This document shows positions 39,351-61,851 of a stretch of 64,000 nt of DNA, one piece after another. The notes beneath the pieces are model-generated. The model had not been told where the DNA came from, made no database searches, and saw nothing but the letters and a program-made list of their open reading frames with translations. The position numbers and the translations under genes are program-made. The stretch lies in NCBI GenBank assembly GCA_033220425.1, contig CM065649.1, positions 2,294,001 to 2,358,000 on the forward strand. Direction: 5' to 3'. This DNA is from Lepraria neglecta (Eukaryota > Ascomycota > Lecanoromycetes > Lecanorales > Stereocaulaceae). Position 1 is the first letter of the stretch. Every line of letters starts with the position of its first letter.

Positions 39351-39767
39351 GATTGAAAGCTTCCAATTGCTTTATTTTTGTGGAAATTTTTGGCTATCGA
39401 CGTGGAATTTCTTCGGCAAAACCGACGCGGATCAACGTTTTCCCGTAAGTCTTGGCAGGGTCTGTTGCGACTTGACGCTGAGTGAGGCTGAGGCACTGTT
39501 ACCTTTCATCCTACATATATCAACCATGAATCATCCCAATATACAAATCGCGATGTATTTGATTATTTAGATATTGCTGATTTGTGAAGAGAAGCCATGT
39601 CTAGTTCTATTTGCCAGTGACAGCTTTGATGCTTGCGATATTTTGAGCTACTTAATGTCTACCTTCCACCGCCGAGTTTTCTAGTCAATGCTACTTCCTC
39701 ACTTCGTGATGCTTTTTGGAGAATGGTCTTGACATCATGATTTTTCTATCCAACTCTATCGAACAAC
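39351..39767. promoter_or_regulatory. Divergent intergenic region at the core/accessory boundary
   Basis: 417 bases between the divergent L1-domain gene and the STAND-N membrane protein. No repeat seen. This is the last ordinary intergenic stretch before the transposon-rich part. Confidence 0.35.
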
Positions 39768-42381
39768 ATGGCAGCAGAAGCGTCCGTGGCAATAGGTATC
39801 GCCAGCAGCACCATTGCCTTCTTTAAGTTCGCTACTAAAGTCGCCAAGGCGACAAAGGCCATTCACGATGCAGGCAGTGAACTCCCAGAAGACGTTCAAC
39901 TATGCCATACGCTTGTACAGGATTTCTCAAAACTTCTACGACGCTTGGAGAATGGTATACAGCAGCCTCATGTCTCACGGTCGCTCCAAGAGGCCGAAAC
40001 GGATTTCCAACAGCTTATAGAGGATTGTTCCGGCACCGTTCAAGAGCTTCTCATCATCCTGCAGTCTTTGAATCCTATGAAAAACCCTCTTGGGCGCGTC
40101 AGATGGCTTGCAAAGCTCCGTTCAGGTATAAAGATAGCGAGGAAGGAAGGCAAAATTCAACGCATCCAGTCCAGGCTAAGCAGCTATAAGGAGCAGCTAT
40201 TGTTGTTGATGCTGGAGCGAATGCTGAATTCCTCATCCACAACCAAGTAAATCAAATGCCTGTTCAGCATCTGCCGCCGCGTGCTCACGGTTCTACAGAT
40301 CCGCTGTGCAGCAACTTCACGACCATGAAGTTGCACTTCGTTCAGAAACCCGGCATGAGCATAAAGAGATCATTGACTCGGTCGTTAGCCAAGGTCGTGC
40401 ATTTGTTGGCTTGCAGTCTTCAGTTGTACACTTCGAGTCTAGTCTCAATCACCTTCGCTCAGGCTCTGACGAAGGTCTGGCGATTGCGAGACAGATCCTT
40501 GAGGTCGCGAATGCTGGTCGAATGGATCCGAATTATATTTATATAGCTATACCAAAGATACCCCTCAGCCCTTTGCCGATATGGTATTCAGTAAGCTCTC
40601 CCAATTTTTTTAGTCACCACGGATGCAACTGACATCGTTCAGTGCGTGGAAAGCGTTACAAACCGACTGGCTCAGGCCACTAGGCGATTGCGATTATCGT
40701 CTTCTGGGGGCTTGTACACTCGTGACCCACTGGCTTTGGTGAAGCAAGAGCCCACTGGATTTGACGGTGACAAAAGTAACCCAATGACGTTACATCTCAC
40801 CGTCAGAGGAGAAGCATGTTCCACGACACTTCAGCTTGACATGGGAGGCGAGATGAATGACACCAGATTCATTGAAATACTTTCCAGAGCATATGCGGAA
40901 AATGTGGGCTGGAAACCTTGGCTTATTCTACAGCGGTTGAGCTGTATTCGTTTTACACAAGTATGTGGTCCAGTCTGTCGTCTCAGCCCTGTTGCAACAA
41001 CTAATGACATATTTCTGCTTAGATGATGACGTCCGCCAATCGGGAAATGAAACTGATACACCACAGTACGCGGGAACGCAAGCTCAGTACAAATTTTCTC
41101 GGCTGGTATATGTACGAATCTCCGCTCGAATCCGAACACTATCGTCTGCCGTGGTTCCAACCTTCAAGTGAGGAGAACTCAAGTCCCTCAGATGCGTCGT
41201 CTCCTTTCACTACGTCCGCGTTCGAAGAGCCGTCTACGGAGGATCTCATTCTTGAAGAGATAGAAGAATTGCCCAACATGTGCGAGCATAACCATCTAAA
41301 AGAAATTCTCCAACTTACCAGTCGTGCACGGCGCGCACATCAGGATCAAGGGATTGGCCAGCCCCTCGTTAAACTTCTACCAGAAACTCTGCGCCAGGAC
41401 TCGCAAAGACTCGGAGAAGCGGGCGGGGAGATTCTCTGGAGTGTTGAATTACAGGGTGATTTTGACTGGAATACCCTGTGGTGGATTTTACTGGCCATCG
41501 GCTCCGTTGGCTCTTGTTACATATATCCAGACCTCCAACGTCTCCTCAGAATCTACGTCAAAAACCTCCAAGGTCGACTGGTTGATGCCGGCTGTCTTGA
41601 GATCGTTGTCGTCCCAAGCCCTCAATTGACTCTGTTCCCAAAGGCTTTTGCCTGTGGTTTCATGTCCGGTAACACATTCCTCGTCATACTTGCCTCGTGG
41701 CAGGCCGGTCAACAACTAATCCCAAAATACTTCAAGATTGGGCCCTGGCTATGGCCACGCGAAAGCGATACGCAAACTCAATTTGACTACGCAGTGTCGG
41801 CCGGCCTGCTCTTGACGCCTGTAATTCTCTGGGCCTTACAAGTCGGGATCGAGCTCAATGGGTGGTGGCCTCTACCACCTTCATCACCGTCCAGCAATGA
41901 TTCGAACCTTTCATGGACCAGTGCGTTATTTCTTGGAGTCTTGATGGCTTTTCCCGGGGCACTACTTCCCACACGATTTTCCAAGATCCAACGATCCTCA
42001 TTAGGGCGCACGTTCCTGCCATGGACATGGGATGCTGTCGCTATTAAAAATGCTATTATGAGAATAGTACCGCTGATCTTTGTCACAGGCTGGACTCTCA
42101 ATCTTTTTCAGGTCACCAATGCACTTCAGATCACACTAGGTCGAATATCGCCTGTATGCGCTCTCCAATTTGCTGACGTCGAGTGGGCTCAAGATTTTCT
42201 CATTCTCGTCCGGACTATCATGCTGATTGCCCTTGACATTGCCTCTCGATTTCTGGTAGAAGTCGATCTAGCGTCTCCCATTACTACGAGAGATGAGGAT
42301 CCTAAGAGAAAACTGAACGTGTATGCTTTCGGATTTATGGTTGTGTTGCTAGGTATCTTCGTTGCTACATTTCGGTGGTGA
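39768..42381 (+). CDS. STAND-type N-terminal helical domain fused to a polytopic membrane region
   Basis: Four exons, join(39768..40246, 40299..40590, 40643..40960, 41023..42381), 815 residues; the introns (two of 52 bp and one of 62 bp) all restore frame. The first ~150 residues (AIGIASSTIAFFKFATKVAK, SELPEDVQLCHTLVQDFSKLL) resemble the helical N-terminal domains found on fungal STAND/NLR proteins. No P-loop follows. Residues 160-360 contain a conserved-looking segment with MTLHLTVRGEACSTTLQLD. The C-terminal 300 residues carry about six or seven hydrophobic helices, near residues 514-531, 571-589, 619-640, 662-679, 707-725, 754-773 and 794-813. Function unknown. The reading frame is intact, unlike most neighbours to the right, and its codon use is like the core genes. 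Confidence 0.7.
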
Positions 42382-42821
42382 GATGGTCGAGTACTAAAGG
42401 GGCGCGAGAGAACGAAGTTATTCCTGTCACGACGATACCCATGTATATGATATGATGCCTCGCTCTATCTGTTCGCTAGCTCCTTTTGAATCTCTCGAAT
42501 TTATCTTAGCGTTGCGCGATTTACGGTGAGGGACATAAAGTTCGCCAGCGATTTACTGCTTTCCGTGTACAATATAGGGTTATACATCGTACCAGACCTC
42601 ATGATTCTCAAGTTTGGCAACCAAGTTATGAGATCCCAACGACACAGTAATCAACATTGACGTTCAACGTCGAGTCGGGCTTTAAGGTTTGATACGAAGG
42701 ATACAACGCCAAATTACAAGACCCTAAGCTATTGAATGATCAAGCTCCATATCATAATGTGTCATGAGGCTCCAGAGATCGCGATTATAAAAATCGATTG
42801 TTGCATACAAATTTTGAAATT
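42382..42821. other. Intergenic region downstream of the STAND-N membrane gene
   Basis: About 440 bases, AT-rich, without a supportable gene. It ends at a transposon-end-like sequence (42822-42879). Confidence 0.35.
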
Positions 42822-42879
42822 TAGTCCTATAGGGCTGCCGGTTGAGGGGTGCCCACAGTTGAGGGGTGAAGCCTTCTAG
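42822..42879. repeat. Transposon-end relic sharing sequence with 51955-52013
   Basis: The sequence contains cctatagggctgcc, two copies of a g(g)ttgaggggtg-type subrepeat and the terminal gccttctag. The same arrangement (cctatagggctgccc, two copies of catttagggggt, cccttctag) stands at 51955-52013 downstream of a pogo-type transposase relic. This suggests both are right ends of the same DNA-transposon family. The core agccctatagggct is palindromic. Confidence 0.5.
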
Positions 42880-42895: not shown

Positions 42896-43065
42896 CGGAA
42901 TCTAAGGGGCGTGAGATGCAGAGAAACAGAGAGCAGAGATTGCTTACTGATAGTAAGGCCAACAACATTGCCTTGTACCAGCAGGCCGCCGGTCACCAGA
43001 GTGTTACCGAAGCGCGAGCCTTCTTGGTTGATCCTGCCGTATGTAGCGCGTGCTAGTGCGGACAT
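42896..43065 (-). pseudogene. Truncated small gene with Gly/Asn-rich motif
   Basis: Minus-strand ATG at 43065 opens 39 codons plus one base (exon 42948..43065), ending at a good donor (GTAAGC). An acceptor at 42902 would continue for eight codons to a TAG that lies directly against the transposon-end relic at 42879. The peptide contains RINQEGSRFGNTLVTGG and LLVQGNVVG, a pattern of Gly-Asn turns between short beta-prone strands. It reads away from the patatin/NLR locus that starts 318 bp to the right. The 3' part seems to have been lost to the transposon. No family is certain; a signalling (amyloid-like) motif of the kind found next to fungal NLR genes is a speculation. Confidence 0.35.
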
Positions 43066-43382: not shown

Positions 43383-43960
43383 ATGGGATCAAAGTCTGGA
43401 CAGACTATGAGATTGCTGTCAGTTGGTGAGTTTGCCCATACCCTGACCTAATCTTACTGGCTTGACGCCCCATAGATGGAGGCGGTATTCGTGGACTGTC
43501 TTCACTTTTCATCTTGCAGGACTTGATGCAGAAGATTAAATTTATCGAGGACCTGGACACCGAGCCCCTTCCTTACGACTATTTCGACATAATTTGCGGC
43601 ACGAGTACTGGAGGGTACGCGATATGCACCTGGAACTACCATTACACTATACTAATGTTGCTAGTATTATTGCACTTATGCTCGGAAGGCTTCGCATATC
43701 TACTAGCGAGTATATCGATGCTTATCTTGAGATAAGCGAAAACGTGTTTAGCTAGCCTCAAGTATTTACCTACCGAGAGAGGTTCAGCCTAGAGGCACTT
43801 GAAGAAGCCGTAAAGGATATAGTTAAGCGAGAAACTGGTGATGAGAATGTACCACTTATGGATCTAACCTGCTGCAAAACGTAATTCTATAGTCTAAACC
43901 GCTGTTTAAATAAGACTTATTATCTAGAACTAACATATTTAAGGTCTGTCTGTATATACG
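43383..43960 (+). pseudogene. Patatin-like phospholipase domain, 5' half (NLR effector domain), disrupted
   Basis: Exons 43383..43425, 43476..43614 and 43665 onward, with clean GT-AG introns, give the start of a patatin. The oxyanion motif DGGGIRG is created across intron 1, and the nucleophile elbow CGTSTGG sits at the end of exon 2. LGRLRISTSEYIDAYLEIS follows. A TAG at 43753-43755 then interrupts the frame, although homologous sequence (RFSLEALEEAVKDIVKRETG) continues to about 43880. The stop is the CAG-to-TAG type expected from RIP. The homology breaks exactly at a copia LTR at 43961 and resumes behind it. The architecture suggests the effector domain of a patatin/NB-ARC/TPR NLR. Confidence 0.8.
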
Positions 43961-44176
43961 TGTCGGTATAACCTATAGCAGGGTTATGCCGATAGTTAGC
44001 TTGTATGATCCCCTATCACCCGCCCTGAGTAGCCTATATACAGGCTGCTTCTATGGGTAGGTAAAATGGGGATTGATTCTTCTATAGATTGGAGCTATGG
44101 TGTTTTATCTAGAAAGGGGCGCCAAGCACAGATCACGTGACTCCGCAAGTTTGCGGAGTGCGGAATAGTTCCGACA
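43961..44176. repeat. Copia long terminal repeat, left copy
   Basis: 216 bp, TG...CA ends, nearly identical to 46970-47185. Contains a palindromic gatcacgtgac and the inverted pair ccgcaagtttgcgg near its right end. Flanked on the left by atacg, one half of the target duplication. Confidence 0.92.
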
Positions 44177-44347
44177 CTGGCAAAGTTTTAGAAAGTCGAA
44201 AAACAGTGCCAATCGACGCCAAATCCTAGTTGCTTTTATAAGACGAAGAAGGACCTAATAGGCCGAGTAACGCCGTGATCTGATTGGTCAGATCGCAGCC
44301 GGTCCTTCCCTTTCCACTTAGACCGTAGCTTCCCTTTCTACCTAGGC

Positions 44348-44587
44348 GTTTGTCTTCAGCTTGATAGTATTCTTGTCTACCAGCTGCTTTAACGCCTGAC
44401 AGGGGTGTTCCTTCGTCATAGCGTCCGCAGGATTACAGCTCCTATCGATCCACCGCACCTCGTCGATTTCCCTTCTCTCGTAGGATTGCCGTAGTCCTAT
44501 GATGTCGATCATAAGGCGTTTTTCGGCGGTGGTGCCGAGGCGTATAACGCAGTCGTACAGGGAGTATGAATCAGTGCACAGGATTAG
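44348..44587 (-). pseudogene. Copia RNase H domain remnant
   Basis: On the minus strand about 80 codons read through with the copia RNase H hallmark region: LRQSYERREIDEVRWID followed by NPADAMTK. It ends near the left LTR, the expected position of the pol 3' end for a minus-oriented element. Frame decays on the upstream side. Confidence 0.75.
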
Positions 44588-46969
44588 TAGGATCTTTGCT
44601 TAAGTAATACCGTTAATAGTGGATTATAGGGCAGTAGCGATATTAAATCCTGCTACCATTGTATATAGCTCCGAAGCTAGTACCGATCTTATAACTCTTT
44701 TATATTTAGTGCTACTCTAATGAATAATGTTACCGCTGAGATTAATGGTTAATTCATCTAGTTATTTCTTATTAGCAAGGACGATAACGTATCCAATCTA
44801 AGAGCTTAAGTCTGCGTTATTTATAAACGCTGTATCGACGAAAACAAGAAGCTTTAGTCCTTCTAGAGCAAGTTTGACAAATTACAGGCCTCGGAGCTCG
44901 TTTGCTTTTTACCAGTTCAACCATTTATTTAGCCAATCAGCGCTTTCTTTAGTTAGTTAAGTGATTTAAGCTGCCCTAGATAGTGCAAAAGCCATTTCAG
45001 GTTAATATATTGAGGCTATATAGGCGCCTCGAGCTCGCTCCTTAATATATTACGATTTAATATCGCCGGCAGTATCGATCGTATTGATCTTGCTATATTG
45101 CCGTTGTTGCGAGAGCTTCAGAACGTCACCGTTCCTAGAGATAATAGTACCGTTGAACGGAAGGTCTTTTCCTTCCTCTAGTTTCTCGATTAGCTTTGCT
45201 AGGAAGCCTATATCAAGTCGTTTTTATTCTTCTAGCTCCAGGTACTCGGTTATTCTAGAAAATAGTAAGTTATCAGTTTACAGGCCAATAATCGCCTGCT
45301 TAGAGAATATTAAGCAAGGATCAAATAAGGAGACGGTGAGACCAAGCTTCTCGATATAGTAGGTATGGTATATCCTAAACTAGTGTATTCCCGCTTCGGG
45401 AACGCCGTATAGGGGGCGGACTACCTTAAGCATGTTATCTCCTAAGTCGGTGCCTTGCGGCGGTTTCACATAGAAAGGGCGGCTTAGCATTGACGTTGAC
45501 TGTATATAAGCTTGTGAAATATCGCGCACATATAGAGCCCGCGGTAGGATAGTAGCGAGGCAAACGATGAGGCGCTGGCTGGCGCGCTGAATCGTTGGAG
45601 ATTGTGTTAGAACTTCCTTCTTGCCCTTGTCGTTATGAGCTTGGATATCTGGATTGGTCGCGATTACTGGATTCCCGGTTACGGTAGCGGCGGTCTGTAT
45701 ACATTATTTCGCTTGGTGATAAGAGGCTGTGACGGTCTTATAAGGCTATAGATAATCGAAGGTCTTGGATAAGATCTTGTATAGCGTTTGGTAGTTTTCG
45801 GCAAACTATTTCATAAGCGGATATAGACTCGCAGGTAGTAACAATCTTCTGGTGGATAAAGCTATCTCTATGAAGACTTTCCTCCAAGCTATATTGCAGT
45901 TCTCTTAGTCTAGATATTATGGCGTTAAGGTATTCAGTCAGGGTTTTATCTTTATTGCGGTTGATGAAGAGCTATAGGGATATACCGTTCCATTCGTTTA
46001 GACGGGCGATCTAGTATTCTCTTCCCTTGAAGTTTCCTTTAAATACGGTTCTTAGGGAGTCCAGATTCATTGATAAGAATAATGATTAGTTGCTGAAATA
46101 GAAGTTGAGTACGTTACCGTTTAGTATATACTGAAACACCGCAGGGAGTCCGATTAATAGTATCCCCGCGTTGGAGGCGGTAACCAAGAATATATTTAGC
46201 TTGTAGTCGAAAGCGTCGCTCCTTCTATTATACTTTATCTCTTCTATATAGAGTTTGGTAAGGGCGGTGAGTTCCCGGGAAAGGCCTTACTCCTGGTAGT
46301 TAGTAATAGCGTTATAGATTTTAAGGCTGTTGATTGGAGCCGTTTGGAAGGGTGTCTAGAAGCGCTTTTATATTATTTCGAGATTGATCGGCGATAGTAT
46401 ACCGGCTTGGAATAGTAATAGCGAAGGTATGTCAGTTTTAACTAATAAAGGCGTATTATTGCCGGGGATAGCAAGGGAATCTTAGTGGTGTTTCTTCGTG
46501 TTTGGAAGGGGCTCTTCTAGAGGCCATTCTTGCCACGGCTAGACCAATAGATTTGCTATATATTTATAGACTGGTATCTTGTTCCTAGGTGTATAGACCT
46601 TGCGGTCGAAAAATAGGTTCCGAAAGTCACGCATGATACGTTTTTCCACCTTAGTAAACGACCGCTCGTCCTAATCATAGAAGTCTTCCGCGAAGCTCAT
46701 CTATAGGCTGTATCCTTCCTCATTATAGCTTTCGTAATAGCTCGTTAATTGTGTAGTATATATTCCTAGGGCGGCAGCTAACGACTTTGTAGGGTCTATA
46801 AGGACGATACCGTATGGGGTTATAGTCCCCTCGTGTTCCTCCTCTATAGTTGGTTATATTATTGCAGGGTTTATACAGGGTTTAGTGCGGAGCTTGGTGT
46901 TTGGTGTTATAGTGTTGCAGTCGAATTTTTCTGTTATATCTTACTGATCTGAGGTCGACTACTGATCAG

Positions 46970-47185
46970 TATCGGTATAACCTATAGCAGGGTTATACCG
47001 ATAGTTAGCTTGTATGATCCCCTATCACCCGCCCTGAGTAGCCTATATGTAGGCTGCTTCTATAGGTAGGTAAAATGGGGATTGATTCTTCTATGGATTG
47101 GAGCTATAGTGTTTTATCTAGAAAGGGGCGCCAAGCACGGATCACGTGACTCCGCAAGTTTGCGGAGTGCGGAATAGTTCCGACA
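46970..47185. repeat. Copia long terminal repeat, right copy
   Basis: 216 bp, the same length as the left LTR with a handful of differences that are mostly G/A or C/T transitions. First dinucleotide is TA instead of TG. Followed by atacg, the second half of the target duplication. Confidence 0.92.
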
Positions 47186-47405
47186 ATACGAGAAAAGGCC
47201 CATGGCGAATCGCCTGTGCTGCTTCGCATGTACTAATTAGGCTCAGCTCCAATTAACGGTATAATCTGGGAAGCTACCCGAGTACTATCTGCCGTACCGA
47301 TATTCTTTCCCCCTATGAAGTTCAGAAACCGTATAGGCGGAGAGTTTATTAATAGCGGCGTTGGTTGTAATAACCCTACGAAAGCTCTCATCAAAGAAGC
47401 CAAGT
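47186..47405 (+). pseudogene. Patatin-like phospholipase domain, 3' part behind the copia insertion
   Basis: Immediately after the target duplication the patatin homology resumes. The best readable block runs from about 47258 to 47405: IIWEATRVLSAVPIFFPPMKF, then a SGVGCNNPTKALIKEAK segment that corresponds to the conserved D-G-G/x-x-x-NNP region of patatins. The catalytic Asp position reads as NSGVG, so the Asp is replaced by Asn (GAC to AAC type transition). Homology is lost after 47405. Confidence 0.78.
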
Positions 47406-47683
47406 TATACTGTGAAGGTGTGGGAGTAAGGGCGTCGGTAAAGAGATAGTAGCGGAATAGTCACGGGCAAGCTTGCTGCATGGAACGGCTGAGTAGAATC
47501 GAATAAGACTGCTGTATAAACCTATATCTGTAAGAATGTATGTAAGATGATGTCTCTCTGTCGCATTAGGTCTGCCCATACTCAGGCGCTCGCTTAGTCA
47601 GAATCGTATGAACCAATCAAAACTGCAAGACATGTCCACTCCACCACAATACTACCGCTTAAAGAGCTATGCTGTAACCCGGC

Positions 47684-48010
47684 TGTTAGAAGCATGACAA
47701 ACAGGTATGGCACATACCCTCATGCCGCGAACATACGAGCATAACGTGATGCTCGCTCTGCTCAACCAGAGATCAGGTCGAGCATGGGCTGGGCGAAGGA
47801 TTCCTTATGTCTATATATGTAGAGCGCTGCTCACCGTTTGGAGCACTGTGCTCAACTTCGTACTTGCTTTAGCAGATAGATCTCATACTAGGCACTGAAC
47901 ATATCTTATCCATATACCAGACCAGTCTAGTCTCGCGAGGCCTGCTTCCTCTCTTGGCACTCTCCTTACTGAGACTAAACCTAAACGACCTGTCACGCAA
48001 GGTCGTAACA
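47684..48010 (+). mobile_element. Solo LTR (327 bp) with ccggc target duplication
   Basis: Begins TGTTAGAAG and ends GTCGTAACA, with identical 5-bp flanks ccggc on both sides. It shares long blocks with 48312-48638 (inverted), 49112-49365 and 50549-50958, for example the ttggagcactgtgctcaa segment. No second copy in the same orientation sits at a distance with the same flanks, so it is a solo LTR left by recombination. Confidence 0.85.
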
Positions 48011-48311
48011 CCGGCCAATATGTCTCGTCAGTATAGGAACGGGGCAGAAGGATCTTATTCAACTACACAAGGCCGCTTCTGTATACTAGTTCAAAGATCG
48101 ATCAGGACTCTCTATTGCACCAGTCCTTAGTGAAATTATTACAGATTACGAGAACACTCACGACGAAGTCCTTATCTCGTATCTTGAAGATAACATACGA
48201 GATCTATACTATCGCTTTACTATCGCTTTAATATTCCTCAGGGTATACAGTAGATTATACTGGATAAGTAGGCAAAAAAGGACGACGTAAAAACATATAT
48301 AGATAAATACC

Positions 48312-48638
48312 TGTTACGAACCTTGCGTGATAGGTCGTATGGTATTGGTCTCAATAAGGAGAGGAGTGTTTCACACAAGAGTAAGCAGGCTTCTGCACGG
48401 TACTAGACTGGTCTGGTATATGATGAGATATGTTCAGTATCTAGTAAGAGATCTATTGCTAAAGCAAGTTGAGCACGATGCTCCAAGTGGTGAGCAGTGC
48501 TCTACACATATAGACATAGGAAACCCTGCCAAGTCTCCATGAGCGCGGTGGTCGCAGTGCGACCACTGCGACCAGTACCCCTGGTCTCAACTCTACCATA
48601 CGCCCTCGCAGTCAGAGTCATGGACCCTGATTGTAACA
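48312..48638 (-). mobile_element. Solo LTR (327 bp), inverted copy, with atacc target duplication
   Basis: Begins TGTTACGAACC and ends TTGTAACA. It is the reverse complement of the family seen at 47684-48010, exactly the same length, and is flanked on both sides by atacc. It may have landed inside a DNA-transposon remnant, since the sequence just right of it reads TEQELLDCVKRLRLSP, which resembles a pogo-type N-terminal helix-turn-helix region. Confidence 0.85.
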
Positions 48639-49111
48639 ATACCTGAGGCTGAATCAGACCGAGCAGGAGCTCTTGGACTGCGTTAAGCGTTTGCGCCTAT
48701 CTCCTTAGGTTATGCCCAAGATTAAAGAGTCTCAAAATCGAGACGAACGAGATTATCTAAATCTATAACATCTCCGTATAACCCAAGACGGTTCTAATTT
48801 TCAGGGTTCTAATATAGTATATAGTGGTTCGCAGTTTCAGGGAAATTTTATTGGTTCTAAATAAGCCTTCTCCAGCCGATGTTAAAGGCGAGGGTTTAAT
48901 TTTGACGACGTATTCCTCCCAGATATCTTGTGAGACTTGAATTTGCACGATTTACAGAGTACAATTGGGATACTAAGCGAATTATCTTTAAATAGCAGCG
49001 CTGGCTGCCATATATCGTAAGGAGGGCACTAGACTTTATACCGAAAGCCCGCTCTACTATCTATAAGTAAAGTTTATATTTGATTGTGAATTTGTTTTTC
49101 ATACGGCCTCT
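48639..49111. other. AT-rich transposon debris
   Basis: Contains a short transposase-like stretch near 48650-48770 (see the solo LTR entry) and otherwise TA-rich sequence without open frames. No gene supportable. Confidence 0.4.
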
Positions 49112-49365
49112 TGTTAGAACCAGCGGTTCTAACAGGACTGTCGCGTAGGACGGAAGGACTAGGGACAGGATAGGTAGCTCAAGCGATAAGCGCTAGGAGC
49201 GCTAAGCGATCAAGGCGATTAGGAATAATAAGCGCCAGGAGCGCTGAGCGATCCAGCGCTTATAGAATGCTTGGCGGGATTTCCTATTACTATATATACG
49301 AGTACTTGCTCACCACTTGGAGCACCGTGCTCAATCTTGCTATTCATTATTTACTATATATAACA
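49112..49365 (+). repeat. LTR-family relic C
   Basis: Starts TGTTAGAACC and matches 50549-50958 over its left 240 bases, including a palindrome ttagaaccagcggttctaa and repeated gcgctgagcgat / gcgctaagcgat units. No matching 5-bp flanks. Ends at a taaca near 49365, so it is a truncated or rearranged copy. Confidence 0.65.
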
Positions 49366-49639
49366 AGTGAGTGCCCGTAATCTTCACAGAAGATTACCGT
49401 AAAAACGGCTATATCTCGCTTATTTTACACTCGATTTAGAAGATTTAAGCGGAATTAGAAAGCCATCTATCTATAGTATATTTTATATACATAAAGTTAA
49501 GCCCTAATCCTAATAGGGAAAAAGTTATTAAGGATTTAGTATATTAGTGCGTCGGGGGCGGCTGCGGGGGTAGCTTCAGGGAAGTCCGCAGGCAAAAACA
49601 TGTGTTTTGAGCTTTCCTTAGCCGAACCTTAGCCAAATT
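49366..49639. other. AT-rich spacer
   Basis: No open frame and no recognised repeat. The strong TA bias is consistent with RIP-affected transposon debris. Confidence 0.35.
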
Positions 49640-50230
49640 TCAAAATTCGAACCGCGTTGGAAAGCGCATGCTTGGTTCCAAAACTTATGAAATTATGATG
49701 ATATCATATGACGTATGTGGCGCGGGGCATTGCTGCGAAGAAGTTGCGGTGCGCATTCAACTTTTGATGTTCCAGGGTCCGGGGGCGCCAAGCTCAGTGC
49801 TTGGCATCTGGCACCGCCAGAAAAACATGGCGAAAACGCTTCTTTTGCTCATAACCTTTGCGTAAATGGACCGATTTTGAAAATTTTGACGGTGTTAGAA
49901 AGCGCATGCTTGGTTCCAAAACCTATGAAATCATCTCGATATCATATGACGTATGTGGCGCGGGGAAATACTGCAAAGAAGTTACGGTGCGCATTCAGCT
50001 CAATGCTTGGCATTTGCCACCGAGCTCGCGGTGCATGGAAAACATGGCGAAAACGCTTCTTTTGCTCATAACTATTGCGCAAATGGGCCGATTCTAAAAT
50101 TTCTTGATGCGCAAGCAAGCTAATGATTAACTCTAAAACTTATGAAATCATCTCGATATCATATGAGGTATATAGCGCGGGGAAGTACTGCGAAGAAGTT
50201 GCGATGCGAATTCAAGTTTTGGTGGTTGAA
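49640..50230. repeat. Diverged tandem repeat, three units of about 220-240 bp
   Basis: The block gaaagcgcatgcttggttcc recurs at 49660 and 49898 (period 238). The block aaaac.tatgaaatcat followed by gatatcatatga and gcgcgggg recurs at about 49680, 49918 and 50135 (periods 238 and 217). A second shared block cgcttcttttgctcata stands at the unit ends. The third unit is shorter and more diverged. No open frame spans units, so this is non-coding satellite-like sequence. Confidence 0.75.
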
Positions 50231-50548
50231 GGCGCTAGGCCGAAAAGCGTACTATCAGGGGGGGGAAGTATAGGGCCATTCTGATTGGCTGCAAGTGCGG
50301 AATTGCTCCGAATGTCGCGATAATCTGTTATTAGAAGAAAGATAACTCGAATATCTATCAGAATCGGGACCCACGAGGTACTACCTGTTAGTCCTGACAC
50401 ACAAGGAATAGGGACGTATAACTACTTCGGCTAGATTATTTGCGAGCTCTTTGCGACGGATAGCTAGATCCTTAGAATATTTAGTACGAACGGGTAGTAT
50501 AAAGGATGGATAGTTTCTCGGGTCGAGAAATCTAGAGGAGGGAGCTAA

Positions 50549-50958
50549 TATTAGAACCAGCGGTTCTAACAGGACTGTCACGTAGGACGGAAGGACTAGG
50601 GACAGGACAGGCAGCTCAAGCGATAAGCGCCAGGAGCGCTGAGCGATCAAGGCGATCAGGAATAATGAGCGCTAGGAGCGCTGAGCGATCCAGCGCTCAT
50701 AGAATGCTTGGCGGGATTTCCTATTGCTATATGTACGAGCACTTGCTCACCACTTGGAGCACCGTGCTCAATCTTGCTATTCATTGTTTACTACATGCGA
50801 TAGATCTCTTAGGCTAGGCACTGAACATATATATCATCTGATTATATACCAGACCCGTCTAGCATCACTTGAAGCCTGCTTCATACTCTTGTTGGCTGCA
50901 CCTCCATCCCCATTGAGAATCGATCCATATACGGTACCGGTACGCACGGTTCGTAACA
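50549..50958 (+). mobile_element. LTR-family relic D (410 bp)
   Basis: Starts TATTAGAACC (TGTTAG with a G-to-A change) and ends GTTCGTAACA. It shares its left part with 49112-49365 and its right part with 47684-48010 and 48312-48638, and so may represent the fullest family member. The 5-bp flanks gctaa and ctgtt do not match. It abuts the pogo-type transposase relic that starts near 50965. Confidence 0.65.
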
Positions 50959-50964
50959 CTGTTA

Positions 50965-51781
50965 TTCTATTGACAAAACGGACTTTCTAGAGCTTTATCG
51001 CCTAGTAAAACAAGACGCTATCACCCCTACCAATATCCAAAAGGCCTGGGCAGCAATAGGGCTCTTACCATTCGATCCACAAATAGTACTAAAGCACTTC
51101 CCTCTATCGTCAGACAAGCTACAGCAAACCGAGCGATACAACGTGGAATTTTGTCCTACTACACCAGAAGAGATTATTACGAGACTCAATAAGGACGGTG
51201 AGACTAGGGTTGCTATAATACCTGCCAATATATAATAGGTTAAACAATTACTCCGCGAAGCAACGGCAGAGGGTATTAAGCTTAAAGAAGTCGTTTAAAA
51301 AGTGAGTAAAGCTGCTTGTTTTGCGATGGCTGAACGTACTATTCAGAGCGCTATAACCAATGAGCTTTTAGAGTTAAACAAGCGGAAGGAGCGTAAGGCT
51401 AACCGTACCAAAGGCAACTGGGGTAACGCGAGGGTTATAAATCAAGACGTTATCGACCAGCGGAAGAAGGACGCTGCAGAGAAATACACTGAGAAGAACG
51501 CTGAGAGGGCACTAAAGGAGTGGAATAAGGAGGAGAAGAGACTACGAGCACTAGGACCAAATATCTTCGCCCCACCGCGTCTACTAGCTACACCAAGAAG
51601 ACGTGCCCTAGCCCCAGCCCCAGCTGCTGAGCTTTTACCGCTATTAAGCCTACCTCATCTTATTTCTCCTCTACCGAGACCTCTACCAGCGAGCCTACCC
51701 CGCTCGGTTTCTCCTCCGCCGAAACGTCGCAGAATATTAGCAAAATTACCGGTAAGGGTGACTACTCAGGAGCTACAGTAG
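50965..51781 (+). pseudogene. Pogo/Fot1-type DDE transposase, C-terminal relic
   Basis: One frame from about 50970 to 51781 carries DKTDFLELYRLV, TPTNIQKAWAAIGLLPFDP and, after two adjacent stops TAATAG at about 51233, REATAEGIKLKEVV. A further TAA precedes a 159-codon open stretch (NWGNARVINQDVIDQRKKDA), typical of the Fot1/pogo C-terminal tail. The stops are of the CAA/CAG-to-TAA/TAG kind. The N-terminal half including the DDE catalytic core is missing, cut by the LTR relic at 50549-50958. Confidence 0.75.
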
Positions 51782-51954
51782 GGTCGGTGGCGAGGAGGGC
51801 AGGAGGACTCTGGGGAGCTTCAGGATCAGCCAATGGGAAGAGGTCTACGTGTCAGAAAGCCTCGTAAGGCTGCTTAGTAGCTAGAAGGCTTTTTGGAGTC
51901 AAATAAGTCAGAATATGCAATAAAATCGGTTGAGCAGATTTTTTTTTGGAAACT

Positions 51955-52013
51955 CAGCCCTATAGGGCTGCCCATTTAGGGGGTATGCCCATTTAGGGGG
52001 TGAACCCTTCTAG
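51955..52013. repeat. Probable right end of the pogo-type element
   Basis: Lies 175 bp behind the transposase relic. Contains the palindrome agccctatagggct, two catttagggggt subterminal repeats and ends cccttcta, compatible with insertion at TA. Matches 42822-42879 in the same orientation. Confidence 0.5.
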
Positions 52014-52369
52014 ATCAAAGTTTACTGCAGCCTTAGAAGGCGCTCCATATTTCTTCGTCTTTCAGGGGGCTATATTATAAGGTCCTCCGAGTCAACCAGG
52101 GCTAGTAGTTGTACCTGAGATTGCAAAGCAGAGGACTTCTGTATTAAATATCGCTATGCGGACGAACCGCTCTATGGTATAATCGGCCAGGGGCGACGGT
52201 TTATAAGCTCCGCTAGCGGTACGCCACGCAAGCTTCGCACATGGACGTCCGCCAGGAGGGTTCGCACTTTGGAAATACCCACGCTTTCCACGTCAGATCT
52301 TCCAGGGCAATTTCCAGGGACTCACCATTAGTTAGCTCTACCAATTAATACAGAGAAAACAAGAGCTGA
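52014..52369. other. Spacer before the NB-ARC gene part
   Basis: About 355 bases with higher GC than the transposon debris to the left. The missing linker or first exon of the NB-ARC part may lie here, but no convincing exon with patatin homology was found. Confidence 0.35.
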
Positions 52370-54238
52370 TGCGGGAGCCCAGATCCTACGGCTGCTGCCC
52401 AGATCCCTCCAAGCACCTATGAGGGTCACTATGCCAACTCGTCGCTCCGACCGGTCCCTAACTACGTCCCGCGACCGCGATTGCACCAAAAGATCAAAGA
52501 ACAGTTACACGACCTCCAGGATGACGGGGTGGAAGACGTGCGGATCCTGGTGGTGTGGGGGCTCGGTGGAGCGGGCAAGTCGCAGCTGGTGCTGAACTAC
52601 ATCCGCGAATATCGGCGGGACTACGCTGCCGTGTTCTGGATCGAAGCTGGATCGAAGGAGTCGATCGAGCGCGACTATATCCAAATCTACCGACTCCTTT
52701 ACGGTCGCCAGATGGATATAGGCCCCGGGATGGTGAAGGTCGAAGATGCGGTGCCTGCGGTCAAGCGCTGGTTCCACGGTCGTGAGGGGCGATGGCTGGT
52801 GGTTTTAGACAGTGCGGATACCATCGACAACGATCGAGACAAATCCTATATCGACCTGGAATATTTCCTGCCCGACGCGCCTGGAGTACATATTGTTATT
52901 ACCTCACGGAGCTCAATAGCTAAGGAGATGACAGCGCTGGAAGCCGTCGAGGTGGCGGATATGGAGCCACCAGAAGCGGTAGAGCTATTCCAACGATACG
53001 CGAAGATAAAGGAGAAGGGCCAAGATATCGCGACGGAAGTGGCTCAAATCGTTAAAGAGCTGGGATACTTAGCCTTGGCAATCACCCTGGCAGGTTCATA
53101 CGTATCGGTGACGCCTCGCTTATCATCTGATATCCGTAGATATCTCCCTGAGTACCGGCAGCGGCGGAAAGAGCTACTCCGTCAGCGGGCTAAGCGGTAT
53201 ATACACCAATACAGGGAAAGCGTTCTAAGTACATGGGAAGTATCGTTCGAGGCGATTAAAGATTGTAATCCAGCGGCGGCCCGCTTACTCAGTCTGTTAG
53301 CGTTTATAAACTTTGAGGATATCTTTCTAGGTCTCTTCGATAGGGACTGTGCTGGTATCCTCGCGAGCGCCCCTATTCGTGTTACGGAAACATTAGAGGC
53401 TACGATATCGCCTGATGAGACGTGGCGGACGTTCCTATTCTGCGGACAGAAATGGACAGCGTACGACCTGGAGTCAGCGTTCGAGACGCTTCAAAATTAT
53501 TCGCTGATTCAGTGGAAATCGGATCAGGGGAGCTATGCAATGCATAAGCTCGTACATACGTGGGGGCAAGATCGACTGGAGGCGGACAGGCAACGGCGGC
53601 TGAGTAGTCTCGCCCTCGAGCTTATAGCGGATGCCACCGCCCAGGATGAGATCGACCCCAGCCATCAACTCCGGTTGGTGCCGCATGTAATAGCTAGCTT
53701 TAATATATTTTCTCTCCTGCAGGAATCGCTGGACAAGCTTACGATGGGTCGACTCGCTATAGTCTATAGGATGGAAGATTTCTTGTTCAGGATAGGGCGG
53801 TGGTCCGAGGCATATAAGATGCAAGCGTTTCATTTCAGAAGAACAGAGAAGATGCTGGGCAAGGAGCATCCTAATACGCTGACCAGCATAAACAATCTGG
53901 CATTGGTGTTAAGCAGTCAAGGCAATTACGAAGAGGCCGAGCGGATCGATCGACAAGCGTTGGCGTTAAGGGAAAGGGTGCTGGGCAAGGAGCATCCTGA
54001 TACGCTGGGGAGTATGAACAATCTGGCATCGGTGTTGAGCAGGCAAAGCAAATACGAGGAGGCCGAGAAGATATATCGACAAGCGTTGGCGTTAAGGGAA
54101 AGGGTGCTGGGCAAGGAGCATCCATCTACGCTGACCAGTATGAACAATCTGGCCGAGGTATTGAGCAGGCAAGGCAACTATAAAGAGGCCGAGCCCAGAA
54201 GCTCCACTTCCACCAAAAGAATAAAGAATTGGCCTTAG
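52370..54238 (+). pseudogene. NB-ARC/TPR NLR part, without start codon
   Basis: Open frame from just after an in-frame TGA (52367) to 54238, with no ATG ahead of the conserved domain. It begins NSSLRPVPNYVPRPRLHQKI, the usual lead-in to a fungal NB-ARC. Then come Walker A VVWGLGGAGKSQL, Walker B RWLVVLDSADT, HIVITSRS, a GxP-like LGYLALAI segment and MHKLVHTWGQ (MHD-like region). Only about three 42-residue TPRs follow (theme LGKEHPDTLGSMNNLASVL) before the frame degenerates, where intact relatives usually have more. The N-terminal effector is absent. The best candidate is the patatin split at 43383-47405, on the same strand and in the expected order. Either a pseudogene or the surviving part of a gene with a lost first exon. 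Confidence 0.8.
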
Positions 54239-54489
54239 AGACTGCTCCAGAACGCTGCTTCATTTCTCTTTCGTCTATATTCGACAAGTAATCGAACGGA
54301 TCAATCGACGAGGCTCTTTATAATATCAAGCGTCTTTCGGCAAAGAAATGAAGGAGAGGGAAATAGGATAATAGCCAAATAGAGATAGACGGCGAAGGAG
54401 TGGGGTTCGATAAAACAGGAGCTTCCCTTTTAATAAAACATCTCAACGTTGGATCAAACTTATCGGACTGCCTCCAGGCTTTACCTTAA
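54239..54489. other. Spacer after the NB-ARC/TPR part
   Basis: About 250 bases with no readable continuation of the TPR array and no repeat. Presumably the breakpoint of a deletion. Confidence 0.35.
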
Positions 54490-55501
54490 CCTATTTACGC
54501 TGCTGCGAAGGCGGAATTGGATGGATTGAATAAGCAGATATTCGAGCAGAATCTCAAAGACAAGTTCCCGAGAAATGACATCCAGGACTGTCTCATTAAG
54601 GTCCCCACCTTTATCGCCCACTTCCAACTCGCGAAACCGTACTACGATACTTTAGAAAAAGATCTAACTGACGAGATGGCAAGAGAGAAACCCACTAATA
54701 TCAACAAGACTTTGGGCCAAGTGAACGAGCGGCATGGTTATCCCAGGACCTGGCTTATGACCATCCCGCCTCCATCAGACTCAGGATCCGGAGCGGCGGA
54801 ATCATCGGGAGCGACTGGAAGGACCAGAGCCGCCGAGAAAGGTGGCCAAGCTTCCACTAAGCGCGGTGTGAGGACCAAAATCGGCGTTCCCATACCCGAT
54901 AAGTCAGACGGTCGAACGTCTCTCGGAAAAATCCAATATGTTAGGAAAGCCGGGTATGGTTCGCGGGTCATCATGAATCGTTTGGGAAAGGGGTCGCTAA
55001 AGAGTGGGAGAAGGATAGAATATACGAATGCGAAGATCTGCCGAAGGATAGAACGGATCAGAAGCGGAAGAATAAAACGGCGCGTACCCAAAGTCAAATC
55101 CAATACTACTTAATCAGAGTCCTGGAGGAAGAGTATATAAGCACTAGGACTGCGATATCTGGAATAAAGGGCCTCAGCCCTGCCAAACTCAAACGCATCG
55201 ATACACAATTGGACGATCAGAATGAGCAATTACTCGCGGAACTTAATGAGTGCGGGAGAAAACTAAGCATCCGGATACCGGGGAGCAACTGACAAAAGCC
55301 GATATCAAAGAGATGCCCAAGCTGTCGCCGGATGTAATAATCAACGACGTGGACGACGAGGACGACGACGAGGATGATGAAGATGTTGGGAGCATGGTCC
55401 CTCAGAGGACAGGCCTGAAACGGACTCCAAAGCCGAAAGCAGCTTCACGCACTCCGGAGGCCTCCGAAAATTCCAGAAATTCCGTCGAGTCCGAGCTTTG
55501 A
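54490..55501 (+). pseudogene. Uncharacterised decayed gene with acidic tail
   Basis: The first open part (54517-55113) has no ATG and reads FEQNLKDKFPRNDIQDCLIK and later KIQYVRKAGYGSRVIM. From about 54980 the coding-like sequence shifts frame (KEWEKDRIYECEDLPKDRTD, QIQYYLIRVLEEEYISTRTA). It shifts again near 55250 into KADIKEMPKLSPD followed by a run of Asp/Glu and SMVPQRTG to the stop at 55501. Two single-base breaks are thus implied. No family is recognised. The charged, Lys-rich body and acidic tail could suit a nuclear or DNA-binding protein, but that is only a guess. Confidence 0.45.
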
Positions 55502-57678: not shown

Positions 57679-60600
57679 CTATAGTACGTTGCCATACCTT
57701 CCATCTTGAGCGTTGACGTCGGCTCCTTTGGCGAGCAGCATCTGCACCACTTGATCATAACCTCCTTCTGACGCCGCCTGCAGTGCGTTGCCATACTCTC
57801 CACCTTGAGCGTTGACGTCGGCTCCTTTGGCGAGCAGCATCTGCACCACTTGATCATAACCTCCTTCTGACGCCGCCTGCAGTGCGTTGCCATACTCTCC
57901 ACCTTGAGCGTTGACGTCGGCTCCTTTGGCGAGCAGCATCTGCACCACTTGATCATAACCTCCTTCTGACGCCACCTGCAGTGCGTTGCCATACTCTCCA
58001 CCTTGAGCGTTAACGTCGGCTCCTTTGGCGAGCAGCATCTGTACCACTTGATCATAACCTCGTCCTGACGCCACCTGCAGTGCGTTACCATACTCTCCAC
58101 CTTGAGCGTTGACGTCGGCTCCTTTGGCGAGCAGCATCTGTACCACTTGATCATAACCTCGTCCTGACGCCACCTGCAGTGCGTTGCCATACTCTCCACC
58201 TTGAGCGTTGACGTCGGCTCCTTTGGCGAGCAGCATCTGCACTACTTGATCATAACCTCCTTCTGACGCCGCCTGCAGTGCGTTGCCATAAAATCCACCT
58301 TGAGCGTTGACGTCGGCTCCTTTGGCGAGTAGTATCTGTACTACTTGATCATGACCTCGTTGTGACGCCGCCTGCAGTGCGTTACTATAGAATCCACCTT
58401 GAGCGTTGACGTCGGCTCCTTTGGCGAGTAGCATCTGTACTACTTGATCATAACCTCCTTGTGACGCCGCATACAGTGCGTTACTATAGTATCCACCTTG
58501 AGCGTTGACGTCGGCTCCTTTGGCGAGTAGCATCTGTACTACTTGATTATAACCTCCTTGTGACGCCGCCTGCAGTGCGTTACTATACTCTCCACCTTGA
58601 GCGTTGACGTCGGCTCCTTTGGCGAGCAGTATCTGTACTACTTGATCATGACCTCGTTGTGACGCCGCCTGCAGTGCGTTACTATACTTTCTACCTTGAG
58701 CGTTGACGTCGGCTCCTTTGGCGAGCAGTATCTGTACTACTTGATCATGACCTCGTTGTGACGCCGCCTGCAGTACGTTGCCATACTTTCCACCTTGAGC
58801 GTTAACGTCGGCTCCTTTGGCGAGTAGTATCTGTACTACTTGATGATAACCTCCTTCTGACGCCGCCTGCAGTGCGTTACCATACTTTCCACCTTGAGCG
58901 TTAACGTCGGCTCCTTTGGCGAGTAGTATCTGTACTACTTGATCATGACCTCGTTGTGACGCCGCCTGCAGTGCGTTACTATAGTATCCACCTTGACCGT
59001 TGACGTCGGCTCCTTTGGCGAGCAGTATCTGTACTACTTGATCATAACCTCCTTGTGACGCCGCGTATAGTGCGTTACCATAGAGTCCACCTTGAGCGTT
59101 GACGTCGGCTCCTTCGGCGAGCAGCATCTGTACTACTTGATCATAACCTCCTTGTGACGCTGCCTGCAGTGCGTTGCCATACTTTCCACCTTGAGCGTTG
59201 GCGTCGGCTCCTCCATCAAGAATGGACTTTACAGATCTGATCAATCCAGCAAATGATGCATAATATAGCGGAGCCAGGATATCATTAATTCCTCTGGTCA
59301 TGTTTAAGCCCCGCCATGGTTCTTCTGGGTTGAAAAGACGGATCCAATTAAGCAAGCCATGTCCTTTCGTCAAGAAGAGCTCCATGCTCAGGAGAGGGGC
59401 TAAGGTCGACCCTCTCTCAGCTACTTGGGCATGTTTCGTCCAATACACTGCTGCATATTCGGCCAGTGGAAATTCAAGGACGGACTTAGTGGTCAGAGAA
59501 CCCGGCTCATCAAACTGTAGAAGATATGCAAGACTGCTTTCAGCTATCGAAGCATTGACGTCTACCTCCTGGATACTGTAATCTTTAACTCGTCCGTTTC
59601 GAATACTAGGTGAGATAAGATACTCCTTCACAGAGAAGTGCGCCAATCGAACAATGACCCTTGGATTTCCCTTGTAAGCATCTTTAAGTGCCTCCTCCTC
59701 CAAGGAGATAAGACTAGAACAGATCGTCCATATATCTCGTGGCTCTGGGTATCTTTTTTCAGAATCGAATCGAGGACTCTCTTTAACATCGATGGCAATA
59801 ACTTCGGCGACTTCTTCAAGTCGTAACGGCCGAGCAGAATACGTCAGCCACTGTAGTATCTTCAAAGCATCTTGACGATAGTCCTCGTGAATGTTGGACA
59901 GTATCCGAGCGTATGTCTCGTCCAAATCTTTTGGCAGAGATGCTAATCTTTTCCGAAGCCCATGGAAATTAAGACAGCTTCTCAATGAATCAAGCTGGCA
60001 TGCGGCCCACCGAAACCTAATCGTATACATCAGCCTTTGCGTTGCATATTTATGTAAATAAGGAAATACTAATATTACATTCCATCGGCTTTTTCCATTA
60101 GTGTGTTCTCAATTTCTTGTTGCACTTTTGGTTCTTTGTGCCACCTTTTCAGTTTCGGATCAGCCCGAAGTCTCTCGTGAACATAGGCGCGGATATCATC
60201 GTTAACCTGCATACTATCGATAGACATCTTTCCTCGATCATGGGCTAAAGGTTTTATCCGCTCTTCGATGTCTTTTTCCCTTCGACTCGTGCTCAGTATG
60301 TGCAGATTCGCATCCGTCCAGTATTTAAGTTCCTCAATATCTTCCAGAAGCTCTTGTCTCTCCGAACATTCATCCAGAGCATCAAGGATAATAAACGTCT
60401 CCTCAAAGGATTCCATCATTTGATGTAGAGTAGCTAGAAGCATGTCACGCGTAGGTTGCCGTTCGCCGTTCATACACGACGAATAAAGTGCTTCCAGACT
60501 TTGAGGTGTACTTCTACATTGCGAAGAGAGCTGTAGAATCAGCGAACGTATCATCTTTTCTTGCCCTTGCTTTTCAATATCGTTGAAGTCGAAATAGAAG

Positions 60601-61464
60601 TACAGCACGGCTAGGGTAGGTTTGAGACGACAATGATTGATGACATCTTCAATGATCGTGGAGCTGAGAATAGTCTTCCCACATCCAGGTATCCCATACA
60701 GCCAGAAGAACGATGCTGGGATAGTTTTCCAATCAGCAAAGACTTTGCTCTCAACAAACCAAGTACCGGTCCTGAGATGGCGCTCTTTCAGCGCCTTGTT
60801 GTAGTTCGACGATGGATCTGGTGCGACCAGCCATCGACGAATCTTTTCACTATTATCATCTATATCTTGTAAGTGAGTATTCTCAGCGGAAAGAGGGAAG
60901 TTCTTATTATTTGACCGATGTGTAATTGAGCAACCCTTTTCCCAACCTCACCGACTTCGCTCCGTAAGCTCACAATATCACCTTTGATAGCCTTAGACAG
61001 GCCACTGTACATATTTAGTATCTATGATCTAAAGAGAAGTGGGGAGAATCGCACATATGATCGTTCTGCCGCGCCAGGTTGAAAAGGGTCTTTTGTCGCT
61101 CAATGACATTAAGGATTTCTTTAATCTCTTCTTTCTGAAATGGCCAAGCGATTGCCTTGCCGACCTTCCTCCAACCTTCAACTGGCGCCAATTTGTTTTC
61201 CAAACGCTCCAATGCTGTCTTGAATTGCTCAATAGGCCCGTTCGGCTTATTAAGTGACAGCAACGTCGATGACCACGCGTCGCCCTGCCGTGCTTGACTT
61301 GCTTGTTCGTCGAGAATGTATAGCGTGCCGTTGACATTGCATAATTCCAAGAGAATCCTCTGACGATCTTTGGGGGCACCTTTCACGCTGTTAAGGTATT
61401 GAATGACCGTTCCCGTAAGCTGTAGTACAGCGATAATACTCGCTGAAATGCTTAGTGGATCCAT
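57679..61464 (-). CDS. NACHT-ankyrin NLR with STAND-type N-terminal domain
   Basis: Four exons on the minus strand, complement(join(57679..60016, 60079..60865, 60916..61004, 61055..61464)), 1207 residues; all junctions are in phase. It begins MDPLSISASIIAVLQLTGTV, the typical fungal STAND N-terminal helical domain (to about residue 165). The NACHT domain follows with P-loop LYGIPGCGKT (about 222-231), Walker B FIILDALDEC (about 324-333), ILSTSRRE and GMFRWAACQLDSLR. Next is the winged-helix region (LDETYARILSNIHED and LKILQWLTYSARPLRLEE-type sequence). One ankyrin unit then leads into 15 near-identical 33-residue repeats. These proteins act in fungal non-self recognition and programmed cell death (known for the class). 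The TAG stop falls within a further repeat (CAG-to-TAG type), so the array was once longer. Intron 2 has a weak donor (GTCAAA). Confidence 0.9.
57690..59215 (-). repeat. Array of 15 highly similar 99-bp ankyrin-coding repeats
   Basis: The unit theme is GYDQVVQMLLAKGADVNAQG followed by GEYGNALQAAS, exactly 33 codons. Units differ mainly at a few positions: Y/H in GYD or GHD, the residue pair before Y (GE, GK, GF, GY, GL), G/S before NAL, and Q/E/G at the start of the unit. Several consecutive units at the C-terminal end are identical or nearly so. This pattern implies recent expansion or gene conversion among units. Confidence 0.93.
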
Positions 61465-61851
61465 ACCGCTTTGAGTTTCTGCCTCAGGAGACTAAAGTGT
61501 CAGAACAAAATGCCTGTCTTAAATAGCTTAGAGGTAAGGTTGTCATACTTTGAAGTAGTGGATATGAGATGTGACGTTGAAGCTAAGAGCAAAGCTTCGC
61601 CCCCCTCACTAGTCAGCTAAAGGATAGGGTGGACCCACGCTAAGCCATTCCAGCATTAGTAGAGAAATCACTGCGGCTGCTTGAATCCTTAGCTAGTTGA
61701 TCATGATACCTAGTTTATTGTGCGAAGCATGCACTTCATGACTATATGCGAATAACTACATTAAATTCAGGTTGCCTGCCTGCGTATTATAGTAAAAGAT
61801 ACTGCAACATGGCAATTTATAACGGCACCGACATGCCTTTCCACCTTCGAG
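61465..61851. other. Spacer between two minus-strand genes
   Basis: 387 bases upstream of the NACHT-ankyrin start and downstream of the patatin relic. No gene or repeat seen; the NLR promoter presumably lies here. Confidence 0.4.

Follow-up and report, generated by a model that had tools for sequence, protein, structure and literature searches.

Remains of a probable two-gene patatin and NB-ARC/TPR cell-death module, broken by insertions, in Lepraria neglecta

Fungal NOD-like receptors (NLRs) can be coupled to an effector through a short motif that both proteins carry. In the NWD2/HET-S pair of Podospora anserina, a short N-terminal motif of the NLR is matched by a C-terminal motif in the effector encoded next door (PMC5485727). 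Lipase-type effectors are coupled to an NLR by a shared motif in the HELLP/SBP/PNT1 (PP motif) and Het-eN/SESB/SESA (sigma motif) systems (PMC5485727), and PUASM joins PNP_UDP, an enzymatic effector with the motif at its C-terminus, to an NLR partner (PMC9815663). In the consulted sections of the latter paper, effectors are pore-forming (HeLo, HeLo-like), enzymatic (PNP_UDP) or, for PP and sigma, both; patatin is among the 19 starting profiles, and those sections name no patatin-linked motif. A patatin effector under an NB-ARC/TPR receptor is described for PLP-1 of Neurospora crassa (PMC12881547), and section 6 of a 2017 review notes that the Patatin-NB-ARC-TPR association had not yet been found in two-gene form (PMC5485727). 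Here we describe 64,000 nucleotides of Lepraria neglecta (C4:2294001-2358000 of an assembly of 42 Mb in 11 contigs; hereafter the window) that hold a broken patatin gene together with the remains of two NLR genes. We read this locus as the wreck of a two-gene cell-death module, in which a patatin effector with a C-terminal motif was paired with NB-ARC/TPR NLRs carrying an N-terminal motif (probability about 0.77). The two genes are separate, recur side by side and share a conserved motif, and relatives carry an apparently intact patatin; in the window, four duplication-flanked insertions and point changes destroyed the locus.

The patatin gene lies on the plus strand from 43383 to about 48861 and is cut by four insertions with target-site duplications. 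Its 5' part with GTSTGG (43383..43960; inferred exons 43383-43425, 43476-43614, 43665-43880 and 43944-43960) ends, as a sequence-only reading of this stretch had proposed, at a copia long terminal repeat (LTR) that begins at 43961. Exon 43476-43614 holds GGGIRG...GTSTG and exon 43665-43880 holds one stop; Pfam Patatin (PF01734) matches exon 2 with E 1.3e-4, below the curated cut-off. Past the opposite LTR and its ATACG, the patatin resumes after 47190, again in agreement with that reading, with sequence 62% identical over 81 amino acids to P0134, an apparently intact relative of 396 amino acids. Residues 14-387 of P0134 align to window pieces from 43472 to 48855, on the same strand and in the same order. 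These plus-strand pieces comprise 47191..47410 (SPVLLRMY..FPPMKF..FINSGVGCNNPTKALIKEAKLY), the short YRLKSYAVTR at 47653..47683, placed by comparison with relatives, 48016..48311 (ICLVSIGTGQKDLIQLHKAASVY*FKDRSGLS.., 74-76% identical to P0134 over about 70 amino acids) and the C-terminal piece 48644..48861, which ends in the shared motif (motif frame 48769-48861, LRITQDGSNFQGSNIVYSGSQFQGNFIGSK). A second opening had been placed between 47405 and 52370; more insertions do damage the patatin, but the gene itself continues past 47405 to about 48861. P0134 matches Pfam Patatin with E 5.7e-24 and has both GTSTGG and FIDGG, so that the Ser/Asp dyad is present in relatives, and the catalytic Asp is invariant across an alignment of 26 patatin relatives. 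The window patatin keeps GTSTG, but the catalytic Asp-Gly of the relatives is Asn-Ser in the piece 47191..47410, which leaves the dyad no longer intact. In-frame stops and the changed catalytic Asp-Gly mark the gene as dead.

The last 28 or so residues of this separate patatin form a motif with almost no charged residues, and the motif is found again at the N-terminus of NLRs. Database searches with the patatin C-terminal region returned 39 proteins and then 34, nine of them new, with Imshaugia, Candelaria, Teloschistes, Bathelium and Plenodomus among the named sources. A patatin-only profile was built from the 30 of 39 proteins that passed a tail pattern, so the patatin side is pre-selected for the motif; left out were P0131, P0151 and P0157 with diverged versions, P0139 and P0140, which depart after the first part, P0144, which is out of frame there, and P0156, P0158 and P0159, in which no motif was seen. 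The 30 tails align as a variable linker followed by a conserved end of about 28 residues, and motif and linker differ in entropy (0.93 versus 2.33 bits) and in charged residues (4% versus 30%). Seven of the nine newer proteins match the profile (25-58 bits); P0167 and P0168 do not match it. P0167 (511 amino acids), a patatin of the subfamily, does not end in the motif but continues in a single frame into TPR-like units.

The receptor side was represented by 45 N-termini. Thirty-nine were those with at least 60 residues before the P-loop among the best 120 of 393 database NLR matches, listed after 8,000 candidates had been scored, the motif being no criterion; the other six were own-genome readings selected on sight, five with the motif and one HRAM-like. 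The patatin-only profile matches 5 of the 39 unselected N-termini (21.8-37.5 bits) and 5 of the 6 hand-picked readings (15.1-29.3 bits), the next best score being 1.5 bits; the HRAM-like L040 scores 0.5 bits. In the database NLRs P0003, P0077, P0120, P0050 and P0114 the short N-terminal motif stands where an effector domain would be. P0003 and L034 are one gene, which is outside the six own-genome readings; P0003, P0010 and P0046 are the proteins named Lepraria neglecta among the listed NLR matches. In an alignment of twelve representative motifs, Q, G, S, F, G, G and F are invariant. No Pfam family lies over the motif in the rows listed for eight relatives at E up to 1 (the best 25 rows for P0003, P0050 and the window frame). 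A joint profile, which includes the first exons of the paralogues of the window NLR, exceeds 10 bits in the six frames of the window only at three expected places (four frame pieces). The motif frame of the patatin (48769-48861) reaches 64.7 bits with the patatin-only profile.

On the minus strand, 317 bases from the patatin start and head-to-head with it, stands the motif-bearing first exon of a second NLR (42948..43065, INQEGSRFGNTLVTGGLLVQGNVVGLTI), its end inferred from the splice position of paralogues. The six-frame scan gives this exon 40.8 bits (joint profile) and 26.9 bits (patatin-only profile); taken alone, it reaches 30.2 bits with the latter (best of 5,000 shuffles 11.6), and it aligns to the first exon of L035 at 50% (E 0.007). 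The rest of this NLR was not found in the window, where an NB-ARC search of the genome lists only the frame at 52370. All four places of this genome assigned to the patatin subfamily, namely the window, C7:469-471k, C6:2606-2607k and C7:3.912M/3.915M, lie within about 0.3-3.5 kb of a motif-bearing NLR first exon. At C7:471k and C6:2607k the patatin relative lies immediately upstream of the NLR and is encoded on the other strand, and C7:3.912M has a patatin C-terminal remnant on the same strand about 2.7 kb upstream. The motif was found on the patatin at three of the four places (window, C7:469k, C7:3.912M), in broken copies. With the minus-strand exon beside its patatin, the window thus shows the same divergent arrangement as C7 and C6; of the receptor, no more than the first exon was found.

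An adjacent effector gene with the same C-terminal motif also occurs in another species, Teloschistes chrysophthalmus, where LQ350_007464 is a patatin and LQ350_007465 an NB-ARC/TPR NLR, each with the motif; this adjacency rests on consecutive tags, as the longest contig listed is not the same for the two clusters. Among the 120 NLR and 48 patatin matches, five pairs fall on four contigs of exactly equal size; 5,000 trials with jittered sizes averaged 0.12 such coincidences and never gave more than 2. Alternatively, the neighbouring genes could be functionally unlinked and the motif an old common tag or a chance resemblance. Amyloid-like low-complexity motifs may look alike, the own-genome pairs may represent one duplicated block, and several motif-bearing NLRs have no patatin next to them. 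We nevertheless regard this as unlikely: none of 9,000 shuffles, the best at 8.4 bits, reached the motif scores, the Teloschistes pair and the equal-size contigs speak against it, and the placement of the motif, C-terminal in the effector and N-terminal in the receptor, is that of the published pairs in the consulted sections of PMC5485727.

A number of observations weigh against the two-gene module. All four own-genome patatins look broken and several NLRs are still open, and thus receptors outlive the effector in this genome; the four copies may also stem from block duplications and not be independent. No patatin match was found in about 4.3 kb upstream of the motif-bearing NLRs at C4:4.144M and C1:4.630M, or near those at C5:4.631M, C3:2.999M and C4:3.150M. 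The downstream NLR of the window is in tandem with the patatin at 3.4 kb, not divergent, and the patatin-only profile gives the two pieces of its broken first exon 7.8 and 4.4 bits, which does not exceed the best unrelated frame (8.0 bits); the exon stands out only with the joint profile, which was built with paralogue exons included. In another species both motifs were seen only for the Teloschistes pair, and the NLR proteins of the equal-size contig pairs lack the first exon.

The NB-ARC/TPR frame noted downstream on the same strand is indeed there (52370-54238). Its first exon with the shared motif lies at 52226..52330 on the plus strand, contains a one-base frame break and does not preserve the start codon of the paralogues; similarity to paralogues places the second exon, with the NB-ARC and three TPR units, at 52383..54194 on the plus strand. 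TPR similarity to L033-L037 and L040-L042 stops at 54193/54194, and the open frames of L033-L036 run to 968-1368 amino acids. Paralogues share an architecture of a first exon (MQASHLDVRQEGSHFGNTNAFHSQIFQGNFHGLTIS in L035), a short intron and the NB-ARC exon. The motif exon has ten matches in the genome (E up to 10), nine of them directly upstream of an NB-ARC frame and the tenth being the minus-strand exon of the window. P0010 (OEA41_007835) matches the NB-ARC frame of the window letter for letter, and its deposited model (51326-54490 and beyond) links the NB-ARC exon to one frame upstream and another downstream of it. Taken at face value, this model would make the NLR a gene that still works from an upstream start, and the frame 52370-54238 is open and OEA41_007835 runs through it. 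We consider this very improbable: the model borrows its first exon from a frame at about 51326-51601 (no Pfam match) and omits the conserved first exon, and the TPR run is short compared with the paralogues. The three-part model is probably an annotation artefact, and it was not used as evidence of function because its first exon comes from an unrelated upstream frame.

According to the sequence-only reading, patatin and NB-ARC/TPR belonged to one gene opened twice by transposons. The two do share strand and order in the window, and at C8:135k, C4:369k, C8:1.173M and C1:960k, predicted to be of a single-gene type, a patatin frame lies about 0.1-0.8 kb upstream of an NB-ARC/TPR on the same strand. 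However, the window patatin has its own motif-bearing C-terminus, and the NLR first exon is conserved in paralogues without a patatin in front. Patatin directly followed by NB-ARC in one gene, as in PLP-1, is not found in the window. The paralogous loci C7:469-471k and C6:2606-2607k carry both as separate head-to-head genes on opposite strands, and in Teloschistes they bear two locus tags. The window NB-ARC is 42% (C8:136k) and 28-31% identical to the four single-gene-type loci, versus 68-89% to the paralogues (86-89% for the four nearest and 68-77% for six further ones), and 25-43% identical to the three patatin-led NB-ARCs compared in the tree set. It does not group with patatin-led receptors but clusters with NLRs whose N-terminus holds a short motif or lacks a recognised effector domain: in the tree its partner is L033 (support 0.70), both fall within the group of paralogues (0.94), and L043, L019 and L024 are distant. 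Five close paralogues (74-89% identical) all lack a patatin domain in front, and two of the five have a head-to-head patatin relative next door. One split gene was thus rejected on its separate C-terminus, the separate first exon and the divergent paralogous loci, and we give it almost no credence.

The motif departs from the published patterns with which it was compared. The HRAM signature has hydrophobic residues at 3, 6, 8 and 14 and G at 17 (PMC5485727), the PP core is NxGxQxGxN and PUASM is FxGxGxQxxGxGxF (PMC9815663), and the sigma motif, in the sections consulted, spans about 40 residues with two submotifs repeated threefold. None of 30 patatin tails and 10 NLR N-termini fits HRAM, which was recovered in 5 of 5 control NLRs picked by eye as HRAM-like; none of the 40 sequences fits PP or PUASM, both run without a positive control (for PP, a PP-bearing one). 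Since HRAM, PP and PUASM all fail in tails and N-termini alike, the motif could be a homotypic assembly tag of a non-amyloid kind, such as a small beta-arch or filament adaptor. Its length, position, low charge and G/S/N/Q/F-rich make-up nevertheless seem to resemble amyloid signalling motifs, and we hold the non-amyloid tag to be improbable.

If the two-gene module is read in this way, it probably signals in the style of NWD2/HET-S, with a patatin as effector. In intact relatives, oligomerisation of the NLR would bring the N-terminal motifs together, the assembled motifs would serve as a template for the patatin tail to take up their fold, and the clustered patatin would attack membrane lipids, so that the activated NLR would switch on lipid hydrolysis. 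We infer amyloid-type templating, lipase activation and cell death by analogy with published pairs, as described in the consulted sections of PMC5485727, PMC9815663, PMC12881547, PMC10197012 and PMC12258605.

The first exons of these receptors may also be swapped. L037, with the shared motif, groups with L040 and L041, with an HRAM-like first exon (support 0.988). The first exon of L036 closely resembles that of L068 (C4:3150203-3150283, minus strand, at C4:3.150M), although the NB-ARC of C4:3.150M is about 25% identical to P0003 and that of L036 is 88% identical to the window NB-ARC. Similar exons on distant NB-ARCs suggest an exchange of motif exons between receptors, as judged from few loci. 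Closely related NB-ARCs differ in this exon, some loci having the shared motif and others an HRAM-like one; such exchange would switch the effector pathway. We think it slightly more probable than the opposite that a two-gene patatin and NB-ARC/TPR module with an undescribed motif family exists in lichen fungi and probably in some Dothideomycetes, and that its NLRs switch effector by first-exon exchange.

The four insertions in the patatin are flanked by separate target-site duplications, in turn ATACG, the four-base ATAC, CCGGC and ATACC. The first, the copia insertion recognised by the sequence-only reading, is a copia-like LTR element of 3225 bases on the minus strand (43961..47185; LTRs 43961-44176 and about 46969-47185) with patatin sequence on both sides and ATACG at 43956-43960 and 47186-47190. 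Its LTRs agree at 208 of 216 bases, with eight differences, all transitions, plus one gap; an RVT_2 fragment inside it on the minus strand has E 7.3e-5, below the curated cut-off. The second (47411..47648, 238 bases, TG..CA, strand not assigned) is flanked by ATAC at 47407-47410 and 47649-47652 and has a partial copy at C7:476.4k. The third (47684..48010, plus strand, 327 bases, CCGGC) resembles a solo LTR, and the fourth (48312..48638, minus strand, 327 bases, ATACC) belongs to that LTR type in inverted orientation; aligned to each other, the two agree at 226 of 316 bases. A single 600-base insertion at 47411-48010 was rejected in favour of two insertions with separate duplications.

Dinucleotide composition was compared by the composite index for repeat-induced point mutation (RIP). 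It is RIP-like in four patatin pieces (+0.16 to +0.53) and the copia element (+0.46), not in the second (-0.17) and third (-0.11) insertions, the NLR (-0.32) or the whole window (-0.44), and is +0.01 between the genes. The composition hints at an order of events, the patatin and copia being RIP-like and the second and third insertions and the downstream receptor not. Elsewhere in the genome, RIP-like decay is suspected for the NLR copies L038, L039 and L045 (C7:21k, C9:18k and C2:2.019M), which have 6 to 23 TAG/TAA stops; two of these copies lie close to a contig end.

The stretch between the genes (48870..52010) contains LTR-like direct repeats at 49114 and 50551 and a repeated end at 51945-52010. 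A 990-base repeat family at about 49355-50345 has three internal units spaced 217-238 bases apart and at least 38 other places at 87-96% identity over at least 850 bases, among the 40 of 1,070 candidates scored in the repeat-copy search; the same 40 showed no further copy of the 50957-51778 stretch. The frame 51299-51778 has no Pfam match. A transposase origin, perhaps as a pogo-like remnant, was considered for the frames 50957-51778, but Pfam gave them no match up to E 0.1 except an irrelevant one at 0.097. A repeated-element end fragment of 92 bases (42787..42878), identified from other genome copies, adjoins the minus-strand NLR exon. Directly left of the patatin locus, on the plus strand at 39741-42381, a SesA-domain frame (E 6e-7) is followed by a 452-amino-acid frame without Pfam match. 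To the right, on the minus strand at 57679-61491, lies a further NLR-like gene, whose open frames encode NACHT/NPHP3_N and about 15 ankyrin repeats; its N-terminal frame shows a weak PigL_N match only. The region looks like a cluster of immunity-type genes.

SBP and SESB belong to the SesB-like class, not to the patatins. Compared with the described systems, the module proposed here differs from NWD2/HET-S in its effector (HeLo there, patatin here), in its receptor (NACHT/WD there, NB-ARC/TPR here) and in a motif off the published HRAM positions. From HELLP/SBP/PNT1 and Het-eN/SESB/SESA it differs in its effector, SBP and SESB being termed putative or predicted lipases (PMC5485727), and the PP pattern of the former is absent from the motif. 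It is likewise distinct from PUASM with PNP_UDP in both enzyme and motif, 0 of 40 sequences fitting the PUASM pattern. Among the papers listed by the literature searches, whose range excluded subscription papers and preprints, none was seen to pair a patatin/PNPLA with an amyloid signalling motif. PLP-1 is one protein and here two genes are linked by a motif, a comparison made through the single-gene-type loci of the same genome, whose NB-ARCs are distant, and not with PLP-1 itself. If the motif seeds amyloid, which intact relatives make directly testable, the module would fill the two-gene patatin gap and add patatin to the enzymatic effectors of amyloid signalling.

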